This document shows, piece by piece, positions 966 to 25,842 of a stretch of 34,772 nucleotides of DNA. How positions within the stretch are numbered: position 1 is the first letter of the stretch; every line of letters starts with the position of its first letter. The stretch is from positions 1 to 34,772 of the forward strand of contig QHYH01000157.1 of assembly GCA_003223215.1 (NCBI GenBank). The letters are read 5' to 3'. Position numbers and translations under genes: made by a program. The notes beneath the pieces are model-generated. The model was not told the DNA's origin. It searched no databases and saw nothing but the letters and a program-made list of their open reading frames with translations. The stretch comes from Acidobacteriota bacterium (lineage in GTDB: Bacteria; Acidobacteriota; Terriglobia; Acidiferrales; UBA7541).

Positions 966-3900
966 TTAAAAATCTAAGCGCACGCCGAGCTGAATCACAC
1001 GCGGATCGTTCCCTTGCGTGGTGATGACGCCAAAAGTCTGCGGACTCTGCAAACTGACCGCAGGATCCAGAAAGTTCACATGGTTAAAGAGGTTAAAGAA
1101 TTCCGCGCCAAAGGTGACTGAGTTGTGTTCGGTCACTGCAGTCTTCTTTCTTACGCCCAGGGCCACGTCCCAAGGCTTGAATCCGCGCAGCGTGCCCCCG
1201 CGCGACGTTCTATCTACGCTCACCTGAATTGGGCGAAACAGGCTGCACACTGCTTGTGGATCCGCGAATATATTCAGGCCACTGCCGGTTCCACTAGCGC
1301 TGGAGCCGCAGCCACTGGCCGGAGCGACATGATGAATGCCGCTCTCGGTGCGTCCTGAACCGATACGAACCGCTTCGGAAGCTGCGCCCAGACTCGTTTG
1401 GCCGAATTCCTGCCCGGAGCCGTCCAACACTCGAAGTGGAAGCCCACTGGCCACGCTAACGATAGGAGAAACGTCCCACCCGCCGATCACACGGTTAAGC
1501 CATCCTGTTTGGGCGTGCAGCGGCAGCTCCCATGTGCCGAACACGGTGAGGACGAACTTGCGATCGAACAGCGATGTCCCGTAGTCGTAGTCCGGATTGT
1601 AGCTGTTTGTGAATGCCTGGTCGGTGTCCTGATTGACGCCGGTATTATCAAGACTGTGAGCGTAGGTTGCGTTGGCATCCAGCGTAAGACCCTTGTATGC
1701 GCGGATGCGATAAGAGGCGAAGCCCGCGTGGTAATTGGAGAGAGCGAGACTAGACCAAAAGAACAAACCACCGCTGATCTGCGTGGCTGCGGCGGTAGCA
1801 GGTCCCAACCTGAATGCCGACTGGATGCCCTGAAAGACGTCGCGCACGCGTTGGTTGGCGATTTGTGAGGCAAAATTAGAGGCCACGCCGGCGCTGCAAC
1901 TGGGAAAGCCCGAGCAGAATTTGCTGTTTACTGCCAAGGAAGCCTCAAAGAAAGCCTGTGCCGCTACCGGAGACGAAGTCTGGCTCTTAGTCAAGTTGGG
2001 GTCCGCGGCCAGAGCGTCGAACGCCCGCGCAAACGATTGCCCGCCCGCCGTCATAAAGAGTGGAACCTGGTTAAGATCGATGCCCTGATAGATGTTGCGC
2101 GCAGTGTGCCCGACGTAGCCGATTTCAATGCGGCTCTTTCCCGGCAACTCGCGTTGAATCGTGAAGTCCCACTGGTTGTGTGAACCCGGCGTCCACTGCG
2201 GGTCCTGCACAAACGAGTTCGGGACGACAGCAATGGTTGCGTTCGACACCAGAGTGTTGCCTGGTATGATCGGCGGCGTAAGGGTGGCGGCAATGGTCGG
2301 AAGCGGGATGGTGCTGCCGTCAATTCCAATGCGAAATGCTGTGCTTGGGGTTGTGCCACTGCTGCCGCGACAATCGCTGGCGGTGGCGGCATTCAGCCCG
2401 GGGCCCTGACACAACAGCGGTTGTCCAATGCCCACGCTCTGTAGCGTATCAATGACCGCTTGCACACCATTCAGGCGATCAAAAAAGCGCCAGTAGCCGC
2501 CCCGCAGCACGGTCTTGCCGTCGCCGAAAATCCTGCCCAAAATGCCGGAGGTAAATTTGGGCTGCCAAGCCAGCGCCGCACGCGGCTCAAAATTGTCGGT
2601 AACAAGCGACCATGGATAATCGCGGCCCATGTTGCGGAAAGGAGTGAATCCGACTACCGGATTAAAGATCTGTCCGGCAAGAGCGGCTTGGCTGCGCTGA
2701 TTCAAATATGTGCGCGGCAACAGGGCCCTGCCATCGGCCGCCGAAACCGTCATGATCAGTTTGCCATTATCGGCAGGCAGCGAGGGCACGCTCGCGGCCC
2801 AAGCCAATCCACCCGTGAGCGTGAGCGTAGGCCGCACTCGCCAGGTATCCTGGGCATAAAGTGTGGCCGGCTTGTATGTAACGGTGTTGCTCAAATCGGT
2901 GCCTTGTGGCAGCAGCCCAAGATTGGCGTCGCGTGCGCGCAGAATGGTGACGCCATCCACCATGCCCAGCACCTCCGCATACAAGCCGTTCCAAGTGGAA
3001 TTCTGGCTGCTCGGCAAACAATTCGTGGTGACGGAGGCCGAGCACGCAGGCGGTCGGGCCGAACTGGGAAAACTGATCCCGCCCAGGCTGGTGTTACCGA
3101 TGAAGTACTGCAACGTCTTCTGCGAGTTCTGCTGGCCGTCATCGCGCACAAAATCAGCCCAAGTGTGATTCAACGAGCCACCCAGACGGATAATGTGGCC
3201 CCCGCGCACCCACGTGACGTCGTCGCGCACCGACAGGCCATGTGAGTTCCAGCGACGGGTACGTGCCCCCTGGGTGTCAATGTTCACTGGAACCAGAGCA
3301 TTGACGGTATCGCCTCCGGGCACCAGAGCGGCGGGCGTTCCCGAAACCTGCGGAAACGGCGGCAGCGAATTCCACTGCCACCAATCGCGCAGCCAGCTGA
3401 CGTGCACATCGTTGGTGAAGGCGGGAGTCGGGCTGGCGGTCAGTCCCGTCACCAGGAAGCGCGGCTGCCGCGGTATGTCAGAGAGGATCTTTGGTGTTCC
3501 AAGCACGTCGCCGCTGACAAGTCCTCCAATATCAGCCTGCCGAAGAATTCCGGCCGCTTCCGTGTAGTGGCGATAGCTGGCGGTCCAGTGAAACCGAGAA
3601 CCGAAGTCGTGGTCCGCCCGGATCAACCCAAAGTTATCGTTGTGCGGCATCTTCCCGAATCCCGAGAAGCCTATGGTATTGAGGCCGTCGCCCTGGGAAA
3701 TGTCATTGCCTGCGGGCTCCAGCGCCCACAGCTTGCTTATCGGTGGTGCCATCCCCAATCCGCGAGGATCGAAAGAACCGGTGCCCGCAGAGTTACACGC
3801 AGCGTTGGGTGCACCAGGCACCATGGAGTAACCCACCGTGTTTCCCGCGGCATCCTTGAAACGGAGGATGCCCTGCTTTAGGCAGGCAGTAGGCACGATG

Positions 3901-18173: not shown

Positions 18174-20021
18174 ATGATTGACTTCGTCGTAGGCATCGAT
18201 TTGGGAACCACAAACTCGGAGATCGCGGCGTATGTTGGCGATCGTGTGCGGATCCTCGGGAGCGGAACAAAAATGCTCCCCTCCTGCGTGGGGTTCTCGC
18301 CAACCGGGGAACTTTTGGTAGGGCAAGCGGCGCGCAACCAGCAAATCCTCTATCCAGAGCGCACCGTGCGCAGCGTCAAGCGCCGGATGGGAATGCAGGA
18401 AGCCGTGCCCCTTGGCGATAAGACTTTTACGCCGCAGGAGATTTCCGCCTTGATCCTGCGCGAACTGGTTCAGTGGGCTCGCAGTGAACTCGGCCAGCCA
18501 GTTGAGAAGGCGGTGATCACCGTGCCCGCGTATTTCTCCGACGCCCAGCGCACGGCCACCCGCGAGGCGGGAATGTTGGCGGGCTTGGAGGTGGTTCGCA
18601 TCCTCAATGAGCCGACCGCGGCAAGCTTGGCTTACGGCTTCGGCGACGCTTCGCGTCACACCGCGATGATCTACGACCTGGGCGGCGGCACGTTTGATGT
18701 GTCCGTTGTTATTGTGGAAGGCGAAGTAACAGAAGTTCTCGCAAGCCACGGCAACAATCACCTGGGCGGAGATGACTTCGACGACTTGTTGCTCGAGCGT
18801 CTGGAACAGGAATTCGAACGGCTGTATGGCATTGATCTGCGTCACGGCCATGCGGCCGCCCACGCCCGGTTGTGGTGGGCGGCGGAAGAGGCCAAAAAGA
18901 AGCTCAGCTTCGAGCCTTATGTGAGCGTGCGCGAAGAAAACCTGGTGATCCAAAACGGCAAGGCTCTGCACCTGGATCTCGAGCTCTCCCGCACCGAGTA
19001 CGAGGAAATGATCTTGCGCCTGGTAGAATCCACGCTCGATAGCGTTTCGAAAACCCTCGCCGACGCCGGCAAGGGCGCTTCGGACCTCGATGCGATTTTG
19101 CTTGTGGGCGGCTCGACCCGCACGCCGCTGATCTCACGGCTGCTCCGGGAGCGCTCCGGCCTCGAGCCCCGCCAGGACGTGCATCCGGACCTGTGCGTCG
19201 CGCTGGGTGCCGGGGTGCTGGCCTCCCGCCTCGCCGGTCACGAAGTGGAGCGAGTGCTAGTGGATGTATCGCCCTATTCTTTCGGTCCTTCCTACCTGGG
19301 AGACCGGGGCGGTGTCCTCTATCCGCATTGCTACCGTCCGATCATTCATCGCAACACGCCGTTGCCTATTACGCGCACGGAGTCCTATTGGACAGCGGCA
19401 CCCTATCAGAAGGTAGTGCAGCTCGAGATCTATCAGGGAGAGGATGAAGACGCACTGAAAAACATCCTGGTAGGCGATTTCCGCGTCGAAGGTCTGCAGC
19501 CCACCGAAGAACCCAATGAAGTGCTTTGCCGGATGAGCCTGGATGTTGATGGCATCCTGCACGTCACAGCCACCGAAAAGCAGACCGGGAAATCTAAACA
19601 TATCACCGTCGCCAATGCCCTCCAGACCAAGACCGCAGGCGAAATCGAAGCGGCGCGGCAGCGCTTGAAAATGGTATATTCCCGGCGTGCCCAAAGCTTC
19701 GATGACTCCTTCGAGACACGCGAGGGCGAAGTCGCTTCGGCTCCCGACCTACGGGCTGAGGTTGAAGGCGAATCTGTGGCGAGCGCGTCCCCACCGAGCG
19801 AGATTCTCTTGCGCCGGCCCGGTATGGAAGCCGTGAGTGATGCCAGAAGACTGATCGAACGGTCTCGCCGCCTGCTCGAAAAGATGCATCCCGATGACAA
19901 GGAGGAAGCGATCGGCTTGCATGAGAGCATCGAAACGGCCATCGATGCCGGAGATCCGGCGACGCTGGAAAAAGCGATAAAGGACCTGGGGGAGCTTCTC
20001 TTTTTTGTGGAGGGTCAGTGA
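18174..20021 (+). CDS. Hsp70 (DnaK-family) chaperone, accessory paralogue
   Basis: The protein is 615 aa. The ATG at 18174 has AGGAAA upstream. The nucleotide-binding domain is complete: phosphate-1 VGIDLGTTNSEIA (6-18), the VKRRMG Lys region (68-73), VITVPAYFSDAQRTATREAG (114-133), LNEPTAASLAYG, phosphate-2 YDLGGGTFDVSV (167-178) and adenosine motif ILLVGGSTRTPLI (308-320). The hydrophobic linker reads VERVLVDVSP (358-367). A substrate-binding beta domain follows, then a helical lid that is charged and variable at about 500-545 and ends FFVEGQ. It is somewhat shorter than the usual DnaK of about 640 aa. It should be an active ATPase chaperone serving this operon's system. The zinc-ribbon gene starts inside its stop codon. 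Confidence 0.95.
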   Translation: MIDFVVGIDLGTTNSEIAAYVGDRVRILGSGTKMLPSCVGFSPTGELLVGQAARNQQILYPERTVRSVKRRMGMQEAVPLGDKTFTPQEISALILRELVQWARSELGQPVEKAVITVPAYFSDAQRTATREAGMLAGLEVVRILNEPTAASLAYGFGDASRHTAMIYDLGGGTFDVSVVIVEGEVTEVLASHGNNHLGGDDFDDLLLERLEQEFERLYGIDLRHGHAAAHARLWWAAEEAKKKLSFEPYVSVREENLVIQNGKALHLDLELSRTEYEEMILRLVESTLDSVSKTLADAGKGASDLDAILLVGGSTRTPLISRLLRERSGLEPRQDVHPDLCVALGAGVLASRLAGHEVERVLVDVSPYSFGPSYLGDRGGVLYPHCYRPIIHRNTPLPITRTESYWTAAPYQKVVQLEIYQGEDEDALKNILVGDFRVEGLQPTEEPNEVLCRMSLDVDGILHVTATEKQTGKSKHITVANALQTKTAGEIEAARQRLKMVYSRRAQSFDDSFETREGEVASAPDLRAEVEGESVASASPPSEILLRRPGMEAVSDARRLIERSRRLLEKMHPDDKEEAIGLHESIETAIDAGDPATLEKAIKDLGELLFFVEGQ

Positions 20022-20713: not shown

Positions 20714-21100
20714 TCATCCAATGTCGTTAGGCACAAATCCCATGGCACGGACTACACCGCGGGCGATTTCCCTCAAAGTGCTTTCGCTGAGCCTCCTGAG
20801 AGCGCCTCTGGATGGCTGAAGAGTCTGCTTCCGAATCGTCGAAATGGTTTCTGCTTGGAGGTCGCAGGCCTCGGCAAGCCCGGTTTCACCGGGTTGTAAT
20901 CGGATGTGTGTCGGCGACTCTCTCAGCGTCGTGGAAAGGGGCACGGCCAGCACGGTCTCCGCCCTAGGGTGCTGGTTTCTAGCGTCCATGGAAACAATCA
21001 CAACCGGACGAGGATTTTTTTCTGGGGGATCTGAGGGAAACTTGACAAACCAGATTTCGCCCCGCTTAGGCTGCGGCAGCGGCGTCGCTTGACTCGGCAT
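20714..21100 (-). CDS. MazF/PemK-family endoribonuclease toxin
   Basis: A 128-aa protein with the MazF beta-barrel signature: KRGEIWFVKFPSDPPEKNPR near the N-terminus, RPVVIVSMDARN, VLAVPLSTTLRESPTHIRL, and GLAEACDLQAETISTIRK. By family it is an mRNA-cleaving endoribonuclease. The Arg in the first loop (about R27-R31) and the Ser/Thr of PLSTT are where catalytic residues normally sit. It follows its antitoxin by 5 nt on the same strand. No obvious ribosome binding site other than GAGCC precedes it, so translation may be coupled to the antitoxin. Confidence 0.9.
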   Translation of the reverse strand: MPSQATPLPQPKRGEIWFVKFPSDPPEKNPRPVVIVSMDARNQHPRAETVLAVPLSTTLRESPTHIRLQPGETGLAEACDLQAETISTIRKQTLQPSRGALRRLSESTLREIARGVVRAMGFVPNDIG

Positions 21101-21105
21101 TGTGG

Positions 21106-21384
21106 TTATGGCTCGGCTCTAGCCAGCTCGCTCTCCGCAAACTCACCCCAGGCGGCCTCTTCGCGCCGTTCTTGTTCCGAGAGCGAATCATAATAGGCTA
21201 GTATTTGAGCGTTGAGTCGCGCCGCCTCAGAAGTCTGTCTTGAGACTGCGATGATCTGTTCCACGCATGCGCTGACCGATGACGCTTTTGCCTTCGCGCA
21301 GCTTTTCAAGAACCTGACCGTTCCCCTTTCGAGGGACAGCGTAAGGCGCTCCTTACGTCCAGCTTTCTGGCGTGCCTGGGCCAT
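21106..21384 (-). CDS. ribbon-helix-helix-like antitoxin (MazE partner)
   Basis: The chosen start (ATG 21384) has GGAG 8 nt upstream and gives a 92-aa protein beginning MAQARQKAGRKERLTLSLER, then GTVRFLKSCAKAKASSVSAC. A basic beta-strand followed by two helices fits an Arc/CopG/MazE-type ribbon-helix-helix antitoxin. The C-terminal half is acidic (SLSEQERREEAAWGEFAESE), suited to hold the toxin. A further in-frame ATG at 21420 would add 12 residues, but these are coded by the operator palindrome. It should bind MazF and repress the shared promoter through the CTCATAC array. Confidence 0.85.
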   Translation of the reverse strand: MAQARQKAGRKERLTLSLERGTVRFLKSCAKAKASSVSACVEQIIAVSRQTSEAARLNAQILAYYDSLSEQERREEAAWGEFAESELARAEP

Positions 21385-21394
21385 GTTCGACTCC

Positions 21395-21473
21395 GTATGA
21401 GGAATCTCATACTCTCTCATACGATCATCATACTATATTTACCAGGCATTGCAATACTCATGCACACTCATAC
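21395..21473 (-). promoter_or_regulatory. promoter and phased operator array of the MazEF-type pair
   Basis: On the minus strand, TTGCAA (21454-21449), a 16-nt spacer and TATGAT (21432-21427) form a promoter. Around it lie CTCATAC-like half-sites, read on the plus strand, at 21406, 21416, 21427 (ATCATAC), 21457 (CTCATGC) and 21467. They are about one or three helical turns apart, and an inverted partner GTATGAG at 21395 makes a perfect 7-bp palindrome with the 21406 copy. One site overlaps the -10 and others flank the promoter. This is the expected design for cooperative binding of a ribbon-helix-helix antitoxin. Confidence 0.75.
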
Positions 21474-21850
21474 TCCTCTGCCGGCCGACCCAACAGTAGT
21501 CCAGAACATGCCTCTTCCACTGCACTCCGCCCTCTTCGCTCGTACCAATAGACTCCGAGCGGCTCGTTGGCGCCCGGATCACGGTCGTGCGCATAGTAGC
21601 GTTTGCCCGTGATCAATTCACGCCGTCCATCGCCATTCAAATGCGCCAAGGTCACAGCGTCTGCCTGCGACCAGCTATTATCAATCAAACGCTTCGTCCA
21701 CACGCCATTCCCCCGGGCATCCTTTTTCTGCATACCAGAAGATGGCGTGGTCGTGAGCCAGGCTAGCGATCAAATCGGGCAACCCACTAAAATTCCCGCC
21801 CGCGCGTGTTCATCTGCCGAGATCCATGTGCCAGTCAGACGCGGATAAGA
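21458..21850 (-). pseudogene. FG-GAP/VCBS-type repeat protein fragment
   Basis: Minus-strand translation gives DLIASLAHDHAIFWYA, then after a frame change QKKDARGNGVWTKRLIDNSW and SQADAVTLAHLNGDGRRELI, ending GKRYYAHDRDPGANEPLGVY and WYERRG. LNGDGRREL is the calcium-binding FG-GAP/VCBS repeat core. The frameshift falls in an AAAAA run near 21725. Neither start nor natural C-terminus is present. It is the remnant of a secreted beta-propeller protein, partly overlapped by the promoter of the toxin-antitoxin pair. Confidence 0.68.
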
Positions 21851-21996
21851 ATCAGGCGAAGGAAAGATTCAGGTGATGTCCTGAATCAAAATTAGGGATT
21901 GGCTTGGATTGGCGCGAAGCCAAGCTTGTGTCATTTGGATTAGGCGTTCGTCGAACTACTGTCCCGTAAGACTTCACCACTTCCTGGAGCTTGCTT

Positions 21997-24900
21997 ATGC
22001 GCCTACAGAGGACAAATACGCTCTTTCCACACACCGCAGCCAGGACCGGCAGACTCGCTTTTTTCGTCGCAGCCGCTCTGTGTCTTTGTGGGTCCATCAA
22101 GGCGTCAGCGCAGGAGGCTCGTGCGAAGCTCGGTGGCCGGGTTACCGACCCGCAGGGCTACGTCGTCCCAAACGCAATCGTGACCGTGACCTCCAACGAC
22201 ACGGGCGTAAGGTACCAGACGCAGACCAATACCCAAGGGAACTGGATCGTTGAATTCTTACTGCCGGGTCCTTACCGCTTCACCGTGAAGGCGCCTGGGT
22301 TCAGAACCGCCCAGCGCGGCGGCGTCACGCTGCAAACGGCAGACGACAAAGAGATTGATGTCCAACTCGAAGTCGGCGCCGCGACAGAGAGTGTCGAAGT
22401 AAGTTCGGGAACGCCACTCATTGATACCACCTCTGCCACATCCGGCACGGTCATCACTTCGGAGGAATTGAATGAACTGCCGACAAGTTCGCACGTGGTC
22501 ACGCTGTTCGCGACACTGTCTCCCGGTCTGGTCGCCCAATACCAGAACAACAACGTGGCGCACTTGTGGTCGTTTAACGCGGCGTCACAGTTCGAGGCGA
22601 ACGGTGGCCGCAATAACATCTATTCCAATAACTACCTCCTGGACGGCATGCCCGATACGAAGTCCGGGGGCGACATCGCGTTCATCCCGTCCATGGATTC
22701 CGTGCAGGAGTTTCGTATCCTGACCAACGCTTACGACGCTTCCATCGAACGCCAAGCTGGATCCACGATCAACATACAGACCAAAACCGGCGGCAAGGAT
22801 TACCACGGCAATCTCTACGAATACAATCAAAACAACCTGCTAAACGCCAACTATTTCCAGAATAATCTCGCGGGCGCCCCCAAGCCCGCGGTACATTTCA
22901 ACGAGTTCGGAGGCACATTCGGCGGGCCCGTGTGGATTCCCAAGGTTTATCGCGGACAGGAGAAAACGTTTTTCTTTGTCGCGTATGAGGATACGCACAA
23001 CATAGACCCACGCGGTGGGATACGATCCGTGCTCACCGCGCTCGAGCGGCAGGGGGACTTCAGCCAATCGTTCGCCCTCATCGGGGGGCAGAAATTCTAC
23101 ACTCATCTTTTTAACCCCTTCGATGTGGATTCGAACGGCAACCGCCAGCCGTTTAAATGCGACTCGGCGGGCAATCCTATTGTGCCCGACCCCGCCACAC
23201 ATAAACAGGTAGGCGGCGTGGATTGCTGGATTTCGGGAGTGCAGGGTAGCAAGATTCCCCCTCAACTGTTCGATCCGATTGCTCAGAATATTCTCAAGTA
23301 CGTTCCGCTCCCGAATACGGCCAGCCTCCCCAACGGCAACGCGGTGAACAACTATGTCTCTCCTGCCACGCGCCATGACACCTTCCCGGTACTTTCCGTG
23401 CGCGTGGATCAAGCGTGGAATAATTCGAACCATAGCTTCTTCGCCGTGCGCTGGGCCCACCTGCACGAGTTCCTGGACGACCATTTCCAAGATATCGCCA
23501 CCGGCAGTTTTATGGAGCGCATTATTGGAGCCGTGGGCCTCGATCACTCCTGGCTTCTTTCCAACACCAAGGCCCTCGACCTGCGCTTTGCCGTTAACCG
23601 CTACGGAAATCCAAATCACGACCAGGGCGCGGGCTTCGACCCAACGCAACTCGGTCTCCCGCAGAGCTATGCGGCGCAATTGGTCAAACCTTCTTTCCCT
23701 CGGATTACGGGTTTTGCAGGTGATTTCGGGACGTCGCAAGCGGACGGCTATACCAACAATACCTATTACACGTGGGCCGGTAACTTCACTCAGTTGCACG
23801 GGAACCACACGTTTCACTATGGCGCCGAATACTGGATTCTCCAGGAAGCTGATGGCAACATCGGGGTCCAGGGCGACTTTGATTTCAGCAACGTTTGGAC
23901 GAGGAACAGCGCTACGTCGGGCGCGGGAAATGGTGTCGGCTCCGCATTCGCTTCCTTCTTGCTGGGTCTCCCTTCGGGCGGCAACGTGCCGGTGAATGCC
24001 ACAGGGTTCTATTCGCAGCGTTTCACTGGGCTATACATTCAAGACGATTGGCGTGCCACCAAAACGCTGACTTTGAATTTTGGTCTTCGCTGGGATGTTG
24101 AGCAGCCGGTCACCGAACGGTATAACCGCCTGACCGCTGATTTCGACTTCAACGCTACCAATCCAATCAGCTCGGCTGCCCAGGCAGCCTACGCGAACAT
24201 CTTGGGGTCCCCGCCTTCCTGCGCAAGTGGTGTTCCGGCAGCCGAGTGCGCCATGGTCTTTCAAACCCTGGGTTCGCTGCTCCCCGCGAGTGCCTTCCGG
24301 GTTCCTGGCGTGCAACTCTTCGCCGGAGTTAACGGGCAACCTCGCGCGTTCTCAAACACCGATTGGCACGAATGGGGGCCGCGGGTTGGCTTTGCCTATC
24401 GCATCGGAAAGAACACGGTCATTCGAGGAGGATTCGGCCGGTTTACGCAGGCGACTTATGAAAAGGGCGGCCAGAACGGCTTTGGTCAGACGACCACTCT
24501 GGTGTCGTCGGCGAACAACAATTTCACGCCATGCGATACGCTGGCCAATCCGTTCAACCCAAGCTGCCCAGGGGGTTCGGGGCCAGCTGGCGTCCTCCAG
24601 CCGACCGGGTCATCGCTGGGAGCGCTCACCAATCTCGGGCAGGGTGTGGACTTCAATAACCTAAACCCGAACCGGCCGTATTCGCTCGAATACAGTCTGC
24701 ACCTCCAGCACCAGTTGAAAACATGGTTGTTTGAGGTCGGCTACTCGCACAACAAGACCTACGGGATCTATGAAGGACGCGTACAGGATTACTATCCTTT
24801 CCCTCTTTGGCAGCAGTTGCGAGCGCCACTATTTGACCCCAATGGGCGGCCCTATGACACCCAGCCCTGGGATGTGCAAATCCCCAATCCGTTCAATCAA

Positions 24901-25842
24901 CTGGTCTGCCCGAACGGTGCGAAGTGTATCACGGGGTCCATCGGCCGCACCTCCACCACCAATTTCGGCCGCTTTGTCTTTGGGGATCCTCTGCTTGGTG
25001 CCGTGACTGAAAACGACAACCCATTGGGTAAAAATCAGTATGATGCCTTGCTCACAAAAGTGGAGCACCGCTTTAGCAAGGGCTTCAGCGTTCTCAGTTC
25101 CTTCACCTGGTCTAAACTGTTTGAAGACACAGCTTTTTACCCGGACAACACCCTTACCAATCCTAACCTGGCCGTCGAGCACAAACTCGGCGGCGAAGAT
25201 CGTCCTTTTGTATATAGCGTGGCGTCCGTGTGGGCATTGCCGTTTGGCCGCGGCAGGAAGTTGGGAGCATCAGTGCCAAGGCTCCTCGACGCCCTAGTCG
25301 GGGGCTGGGAGCTGACCGGACAATACCAAATTCAATCCGGCATTCCCGTCGTGTTCGGCACCAACTCGTTCTTCAGTGGGGTGGATCCGGCCCTTCCCGG
25401 AGGCGGCACGCTGAATAAGTGGTTTGACACATCACAATTCTTCCCTTTCCCTTCCAAGAACACAGATATCTCCGCCTATCCCGCCTGGACTGGCATCCAG
25501 AACCTGCCGGGTTACAGTTACCAGCCCACGGCCACGGATAAGCAGAACGGCCTCCGCAACGGTGTCTACCAGGATTTCAACAATTTTGTTCGGACCTATC
25601 CCACTCGTTTCAGCAATGTCCGCTCAAGCCGGGTGAACGAGGCAAATATTGGAGTCCACAAGAACTTCAAGCCCACGGAGCGTATGACCCTCCAACTGCG
25701 GATGGACGCTTTCAACGCCTTCAATCATCCGCGGTTCAACGTGCCGGACACCAACCCTGGATCCGCGACATTTGGAGTTGTGGGGGCATCTCAGGTGAAT
25801 CAACCGCGAGCAATTGAACTGGCGGCTCGACTGGCCTTCTAG
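21997..25842 (+). CDS. Oar-like TonB-dependent receptor with carboxypeptidase-regulatory-like domain (receptor 3)
   Basis: The protein is 1281 aa. The ATG at 21997 has GGAG 7 nt upstream; an in-frame TTG 6 nt earlier is less likely. The signal peptide LAFFVAAALCLCGSIKASAQ ends near residue 39. A carboxypeptidase-regulatory-like domain follows (about 45-125: LGGRVTDPQGYVVPNAIVTV), then a plug with LLDGMPDTKSGGDIAF and SVQEFRILTNAYDASIERQA, and GSTINIQTKTGGKDYHGNLY at the barrel entrance. The C-terminus is AIELAARLAF. It is an outer-membrane TonB-driven importer of unknown substrate. Bases 22226-22627 (end of the regulatory domain and start of the plug) are duplicated downstream at 26401-26803. 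Confidence 0.94.
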   Translation: MRLQRTNTLFPHTAARTGRLAFFVAAALCLCGSIKASAQEARAKLGGRVTDPQGYVVPNAIVTVTSNDTGVRYQTQTNTQGNWIVEFLLPGPYRFTVKAPGFRTAQRGGVTLQTADDKEIDVQLEVGAATESVEVSSGTPLIDTTSATSGTVITSEELNELPTSSHVVTLFATLSPGLVAQYQNNNVAHLWSFNAASQFEANGGRNNIYSNNYLLDGMPDTKSGGDIAFIPSMDSVQEFRILTNAYDASIERQAGSTINIQTKTGGKDYHGNLYEYNQNNLLNANYFQNNLAGAPKPAVHFNEFGGTFGGPVWIPKVYRGQEKTFFFVAYEDTHNIDPRGGIRSVLTALERQGDFSQSFALIGGQKFYTHLFNPFDVDSNGNRQPFKCDSAGNPIVPDPATHKQVGGVDCWISGVQGSKIPPQLFDPIAQNILKYVPLPNTASLPNGNAVNNYVSPATRHDTFPVLSVRVDQAWNNSNHSFFAVRWAHLHEFLDDHFQDIATGSFMERIIGAVGLDHSWLLSNTKALDLRFAVNRYGNPNHDQGAGFDPTQLGLPQSYAAQLVKPSFPRITGFAGDFGTSQADGYTNNTYYTWAGNFTQLHGNHTFHYGAEYWILQEADGNIGVQGDFDFSNVWTRNSATSGAGNGVGSAFASFLLGLPSGGNVPVNATGFYSQRFTGLYIQDDWRATKTLTLNFGLRWDVEQPVTERYNRLTADFDFNATNPISSAAQAAYANILGSPPSCASGVPAAECAMVFQTLGSLLPASAFRVPGVQLFAGVNGQPRAFSNTDWHEWGPRVGFAYRIGKNTVIRGGFGRFTQATYEKGGQNGFGQTTTLVSSANNNFTPCDTLANPFNPSCPGGSGPAGVLQPTGSSLGALTNLGQGVDFNNLNPNRPYSLEYSLHLQHQLKTWLFEVGYSHNKTYGIYEGRVQDYYPFPLWQQLRAPLFDPNGRPYDTQPWDVQIPNPFNQLVCPNGAKCITGSIGRTSTTNFGRFVFGDPLLGAVTENDNPLGKNQYDALLTKVEHRFSKGFSVLSSFTWSKLFEDTAFYPDNTLTNPNLAVEHKLGGEDRPFVYSVASVWALPFGRGRKLGASVPRLLDALVGGWELTGQYQIQSGIPVVFGTNSFFSGVDPALPGGGTLNKWFDTSQFFPFPSKNTDISAYPAWTGIQNLPGYSYQPTATDKQNGLRNGVYQDFNNFVRTYPTRFSNVRSSRVNEANIGVHKNFKPTERMTLQLRMDAFNAFNHPRFNVPDTNPGSATFGVVGASQVNQPRAIELAARLAF

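Follow-up and report, generated by a model that had tools for sequence, protein, structure and literature searches.

A helically phased half-site array as the putative operator of a MazF/PemK-type toxin–antitoxin operon in an Acidobacteriota genome

The window (the whole 34,772-nucleotide stretch of DNA analyzed here) carries six short half-sites ahead of an antitoxin gene and a toxin gene of the PemK/MazF type. The half-sites span positions 21395-21473 and read GTATGAG on the strand of the genes, with five copies direct and one inverted. They lie on one face of the helix, and related loci conserve part of their geometry. The repeat cluster is genuine, and both the number of sites and their helical phasing exceed chance. 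Judged from its sequence and setting, it is very likely the autoregulatory operator of the operon.

Results

A six-site array overlaps the putative promoter

Four half-sites are exact: CTCATAC on the plus strand at 21406, 21416 and 21467, and its reverse complement at 21395. The copies at 21427 (ATCATAC) and 21457 (CTCATGC) each carry one mismatch. Successive starts are 11, 10, 11, 30 and 10 bp apart; counted by hexamer starts, the core spacings are direct 11, direct 10 and inverted 12. The original prediction listed five copies of the 7-mer. Its positions were right, but only three of these copies are exact and two are near matches, and the inverted copy brings the total to six. The perfect palindrome that it described with this inverted copy, GTATGAG-N4-CTCATAC, occupies 21395-21412.

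Table 1 Features of the toxin–antitoxin locus in window coordinates
Feature	Position	Strand	Description
Gene flanking the pair	18174-20021	+	
Toxin gene	20714-21100	-	128 aa, PemK/MazF-type
Antitoxin gene	21106-21384	-	92 aa, PF19891 (DUF6364), predicted ribbon-helix-helix-like N-terminus
Shine-Dalgarno-like GGAG	21391-21394	-	Between half-site 1 and start codon; sequence read directly
Half-site 1	21395-21401	+	Exact; orientation opposite to that of the other five (gene's strand: CTCATAC); immediately 5' of the ribosome-binding site
Half-site 2	21406-21412	-	GTATGAG, exact; perfect palindrome with half-site 1
Half-site 3	21416-21422	-	GTATGAG, exact; 10 bp from half-site 2
Half-site 4	21427-21433	-	GTATGAT, one mismatch to GTATGAG; putative -10 hexamer inside
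Putative -10 TATGAT	21427-21432	-	Inside half-site 4
Putative -35 TTGCAA	21449-21454	-	Shortly downstream of half-sites 5 and 6
Half-site 5	21457-21463	-	GCATGAG, one mismatch; upstream of -35
Half-site 6	21467-21473	-	GTATGAG, exact; upstream of -35
Gene flanking the pair	21991-25842	+	

No other 7-mer has four copies within 80 bp anywhere in the window. Such a family arose once in total in 60 random sequences with the window's dinucleotide frequencies, and in none of 5000 random sequences with the local 120-bp dinucleotide make-up. An upstream pair like 21457/21467 came up in 27 of 20,000 randomizations of the 100-bp stretch there. The predicted placement on one helical face was borne out: taken together, the half-sites give a phasing R of 0.90 for a turn of 10.5 bp, a value attained by 0.4% of 20,000 random placements. 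For the four sites between 21395 and 21433, R is 0.99 (attained by 0.25% of 20,000). Across the organism's own 8.8-Mb genome there are four matches to the pattern TCATACN{3,6}TCATAC, of which two fall in the array, and one match to a backward control pattern. No toxin–antitoxin pair was seen among the open frames inspected at the other two places (L055, L056).

The conserved sites overlap the operon's own putative promoter, which is sigma-70-like (TTGCAA, a 16-nt spacer and TATGAT; 9 of 12 consensus bases). The overlap of one half-site with the -10 element and the position of two others upstream of the -35 element, both anticipated, hold for these putative hexamers. Close to where transcription is expected to start there is an in-frame ATG, at 21420; its use would lengthen the antitoxin by 12 residues (MREYEIPHTESN), encoded by window positions 21385-21420 (minus strand).

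A 91-amino-acid frame (21458-21733, minus strand) lies upstream of the operon, and the extra two half-sites fall at its 3' end. A Pfam search gave no match for this frame, which resembles a remnant of an FG-GAP/VCBS-type repeat protein.

The operon encodes a MazF/PemK-type toxin

The toxin matches PF02452 (E 1e-17; 64.7 bits against a cut-off of 23.1), and its nearest solved chains are named MazF9 (E 1e-5) and MazF7. The antitoxin gene ends 5 bp before the toxin gene, and its product matches PF19891 just above the cut-off (28.0 against 27.3 bits). With a MazF/PemK toxin and a small antitoxin gene directly upstream, the locus has the predicted composition of a MazEF/PemIK-type operon. A MazF-like frame also lies 3' of the antitoxin at 11 of 14 family loci and 12 of 15 distant loci, as counted by eye from the first long frame listed. 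NCBIfam, PHROGs and PADLOC returned nothing useful for the antitoxin. Our literature search found no paper naming DUF6364 and none combining Acidobacteria, toxin–antitoxin, mazEF and operator.

The pair has as neighbors a gene resembling Hsp70/DnaK and one for a large outer-membrane barrel that carries a carboxypeptidase-regulatory-like domain. Elsewhere in the same genome there is a weak relative of the antitoxin (L002, 1412-1723, plus strand; E 0.02). It is preceded by the inverted repeat ACACGTATAATACGTGT and followed by a frame that by eye resembles a PIN-domain (VapC-type) toxin.

Half-site geometry is conserved within the bacterial family

The antitoxin is present in 14 of 89 family genomes, the organism's own included, and an order-wide search of 95 genomes that include these 89 found no further antitoxin loci. 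The 14 upstream regions, taken in the correct orientation, were searched for the hexamer GTATGA with at most one mismatch per half-site. Among the 13 other loci, an inverted pair at 12-13 bp occurs in nine and a direct pair at 11 bp in seven. The full triad (direct 11, inverted 12) occurs in six (L005, L007, L008, L009, L010, L012), whereas random sequences gave 0.087 pairs and 0.000 triads per 14 loci. Since the motif came from the window and the spacings were first seen in the relatives, the fair measure is the spacing table rather than a single test. Over 6-40 bp, its counts exceed 2 of 13 only at direct 11, at inverted 12-13 and at inverted 23-24, which is their sum.

The original prediction had staked itself on orthologous loci carrying the half-sites, and this came out divided: phased promoter half-sites are kept in 9 of 13 loci and missing in 4 (L014, L015, L016, L017), where both the inverted pair and the triad are lacking. 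In L014 and L016 the 5' end seems to be damaged or displaced; identity is only 34% for L015 and 29% for L017. Half-site 1 has a counterpart (TCATAC or a one-mismatch copy) in nine of the 13 loci. GTATGAT, the form of half-site 4, is also found in most family loci with a core, and L010 shows a matched change in both arms (GTGTGA..TCACAC).

The exact palindrome GTATGAN6TCATAC is found at five places in five of the 89 family genomes, and its backward control in two genomes. Four of the five (G000, G024, G055, G059) lie just upstream of an antitoxin gene; at the fifth (G017, L058) no toxin–antitoxin operon was seen among the open frames inspected. The exact form is missing from 10 of the 14 antitoxin genomes, six of which (L005, L006, L009, L010, L011, L013) have a variant.

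The window's array is the longest in this set, in keeping with the predicted unusual length of the operator. Exact GTATGA occurs five times in its upstream 200 bp and at most three times at any other of the 14 family loci; a count that allows one mismatch on both strands is too loose by itself. With 10 bp between the starts of half-sites 2 and 3, the array holds one 10-bp unit more than the direct-11, inverted-12 core of the relatives. Half-sites 5 and 6 have no counterpart at that place in the relatives examined.

Distant relatives partly share a paired design

In a class-level draw of 399 genomes, 28 had a match, 13 of them within the family. A phylum-level draw of 396 genomes, with 12 candidates scored per genome, gave a match only in the organism's own genome and in G351. 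A single-sequence scan of genome contigs found no relative, and neither did searches of plasmids and viral contigs. An alignment scan of genome contigs gave nine loci, all in metagenome-assembled genomes that bear the label Acidobacteria, Terriglobia or Candidatus Sulfotelmatobacter.

The distant set comprises sixteen further upstream regions, two of them from the genome-contig alignment scan. Excluded from it were L019 (the match starts inside the protein), L026 (core sequence identical to that of L041), L028 (a partial match), L038 and L051 (the places of L016 and L015), and L018, L020-L024 and L029-L036 (repeats of family loci). Direct GTANGA pairs at exactly 12 bp occur in 9 of the 16 loci against 0.026 expected, a descriptive count since the motif was picked after the distant sequences had been read. 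In these pairs the first copy was exact save for the free fourth base, and the second had at most one mismatch. The pair is missing in the other seven (L027, L037, L042, L045, L048, L049, L052), and an inverted partner at 13 bp occurs in 4 of 16. Other spacings in the distant table are direct 15 bp (5 of 16), direct 24 (4) and direct 27 (3). The 24-bp spacing is twice 12 bp, and those of 15 and 27 seem to stem mostly from a word sharing three bases with the second repeat, as judged by eye in L039, L040 and L047. The paired design thus seems to predate the family; in the distant loci each of the two spacings is longer by one base.

At L043 (about 1770-1799, minus strand), three direct half-sites in 12-bp steps (GTATGAT, GTACGAT, GTAAGAT) precede a distant antitoxin relative. 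Several distant loci have a possible leaderless start near the second repeat.

The antitoxin is probably a ribbon-helix-helix protein

Structural matches of the antitoxin are weak, and assignment to the ribbon-helix-helix class, based on modeling and sequence, is reasonable. The alignment-based model (block pLDDT 75-95, residues 11 to 90) shows coil to residue 19 and helices at 20-31 and 37-67, with no strand assigned. The ribbon of this fold forms only between two subunits, so a monomer model need not show the strand. Among structural neighbors of the model, a short chain of the MazEF-mt1 complex scores highest (Z 4.1) but is in effect tied with an unrelated chain (4.0), followed by a Vibrio putative transcription factor (3.7), MatP (3.5), and NikR and CopG (2.7-2.1). 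Profile matches to CopG and CcdA (E 0.4-0.5) rank below chance-like matches such as protein A. The best Foldseek match has an E of 0.29; such weak matches are no evidence for a new fold. A single-sequence structure model was set aside for its poor quality.

Candidate DNA-reading residues occupy alternating positions before the first helix. In the near set (10 rows), R13 and T15 never vary and S17 hardly does. Of the 18 loci with paired half-sites, 11 carry T15, and all of these have T as fourth base of the second word; six of the seven that carry S15 have G or C there (the exception is L050). At residue 17, S predominates among the T15 loci (T in L011) and T among the S15 loci (S in L040); the link to the word thus holds for residue 15 and not strictly for the pair 15/17. 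As this link tracks the two main clades, it may reflect shared descent and is a lead rather than a test.

Alternative explanations

The array might be bound by a regulator other than the cognate antitoxin, and there is precedent, since FIS also controls E. coli mazEF according to the available part of one source (PMC4803016). The distribution of the exact palindrome makes this very improbable here: four of its five places in the 89 genomes are at the antitoxin locus, and it is missing from 74 of the 75 genomes that gave no antitoxin match (G017 is the exception). The repeats could also be promoter and start features only, with TATGAT as the -10 element, the next GTATGA as a leaderless start codon, and the rest owed to chance or repeat slippage. 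The putative -10 does lie within a half-site, several distant loci have their second repeat at or near a possible start codon, and the window's ATG at 21420 is close to where transcription should begin. The inverted TCATAC would have no such role, yet nine of the 13 other family loci keep it, altered by one base at most, and by eye a stop codon interrupts the reading frame that runs from the second half-site in L005 and L007. We give this explanation very little credence.

A different possibility is that the inverted pair acts in the mRNA, where GUAUGAGAUUCCUCAUAC would form a 7-bp hairpin directly before GGAG and control antitoxin translation. This hairpin is present in the predicted minimum-energy fold of the leader, although that fold is unremarkable (z -1.47; 15 of 200 shuffles were as good). 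The inverted pair is the most widespread part of the array in the family loci (9 of 13), the arms of L010 carry paired changes, and a G-U pair would form in L005. Against base pairing, L006, L009 and L011 have one arm changed and its partner unchanged, and in L013 both arms have changed at unmatched positions; in all four, each arm is still within one base of the half-site word. An mRNA hairpin would also leave the 11-bp direct repeats and the overlap with the -10 unexplained, and we regard it as very unlikely.

Comparison with known operators

In the F-plasmid ccdAB operon, whose antitoxin CcdA is of the ribbon-helix-helix class, repression depends on the ratio and extends over a long operator with many sites. 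It resembles the present operon in the probable antitoxin class and in operator length, and its toxin, CcdB, differs in targeting gyrase. E. coli MazE differs from the present antitoxin in being of the AbrB type. The E. coli mazEF promoter bears an alternating palindrome, described in the available part of its source as three related segments of which the middle one pairs with either neighbor (PMC4803016); this resembles the present array in layout.

The nearest known systems are the heptad arrays of the omega repressor and the operators of RelB and MazE6, as far as the available portions of the sources describe them. The ribbon-helix-helix repressor omega of pSM19035 binds arrays of the non-palindromic heptad 5'-WATCACW-3', one dimer each (PMC9499535, PMC4803016). 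Both systems use 7-bp non-palindromic words, direct and inverted, at promoters, and ATCATAC and WATCACW have the letters ATCA in common. The omega heptads are contiguous and number 7-10, whereas the present words are 10-12 bp apart, number two or three in the cores of relatives and six in the window, and serve a MazF-type pair. A contiguous WATCACW array of the omega type was considered for the window and rejected; its words are CTCATAC/ATCATAC at 10-11-bp steps.

Dimers of E. coli RelB, likewise ribbon-helix-helix, bind repeated 6-bp words on one DNA face cooperatively and need exact spacing, and inserted spacing in relO abolished repression (PMC2812701, in the part available). Repeated short words on one face are thus common to both operators; relO differs in consisting of two adjacent 12-bp half-sites of hexads, and its toxin is RelE. 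M. tuberculosis MazE6 is a ribbon-helix-helix antitoxin of a MazF toxin with an 18-bp site over the -10 (PMC9477884), and so resembles the present system in probable antitoxin class, toxin family and operator position. Its site is bound by one dimer, and the available part of that source describes no array (PMC9477884).

Discussion

The original prediction was cooperative ribbon-helix-helix binding with graded autorepression set by the toxin–antitoxin ratio; for the putative operator we infer antitoxin binding with one dimer per half-site, cooperativity, a strength that depends on the toxin, and the direction of change. A dimer formed by the predicted ribbon-helix-helix N-terminus of the antitoxin would most likely read GTATGAN, a non-palindromic word. 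With the putative -10 inside one half-site, we propose that occupancy of that site excludes RNA polymerase. Further half-sites follow 10-12 bp downstream on one helical face, where neighboring dimers could touch or be bridged by toxin; such same-face dimers one turn apart may add cooperativity, directly or through the bridging. The inverted site beside the ribosome-binding site would close the core.

The ancestral core likely had three half-sites, with direct 11-bp and then inverted 12-bp spacing. The core in this genome may have gained one 10-bp unit that kept the helical face, and a second pair may have been gained above the -35, about three turns upstream, giving six sites. Several relatives keep a two- or three-copy core, so the array looks like an enlarged version of an ordinary switch. 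The operator seems to combine known features, with the window holding the conserved core, the 10-bp unit and the two upper sites.

More tentatively, a general rule is conceivable for this MazF-linked antitoxin family. Non-palindromic heptads may be read dimer by dimer, as by omega though at one-turn spacing, from a three-site core; the core spacings (11/12 to 12/13 bp) may shift together between clades, as T15 to S15 does with the fourth base of the word, and operators might lengthen by one-turn units, site number tuning repression. The loci would then form a natural series within one toxin–antitoxin family, differing in reading residues, in spacing and in operator length, with two or three half-sites in relatives and six in the window. 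Such a series would permit a direct test of half-site number against the steepness and ratio-dependence of toxin–antitoxin autorepression.
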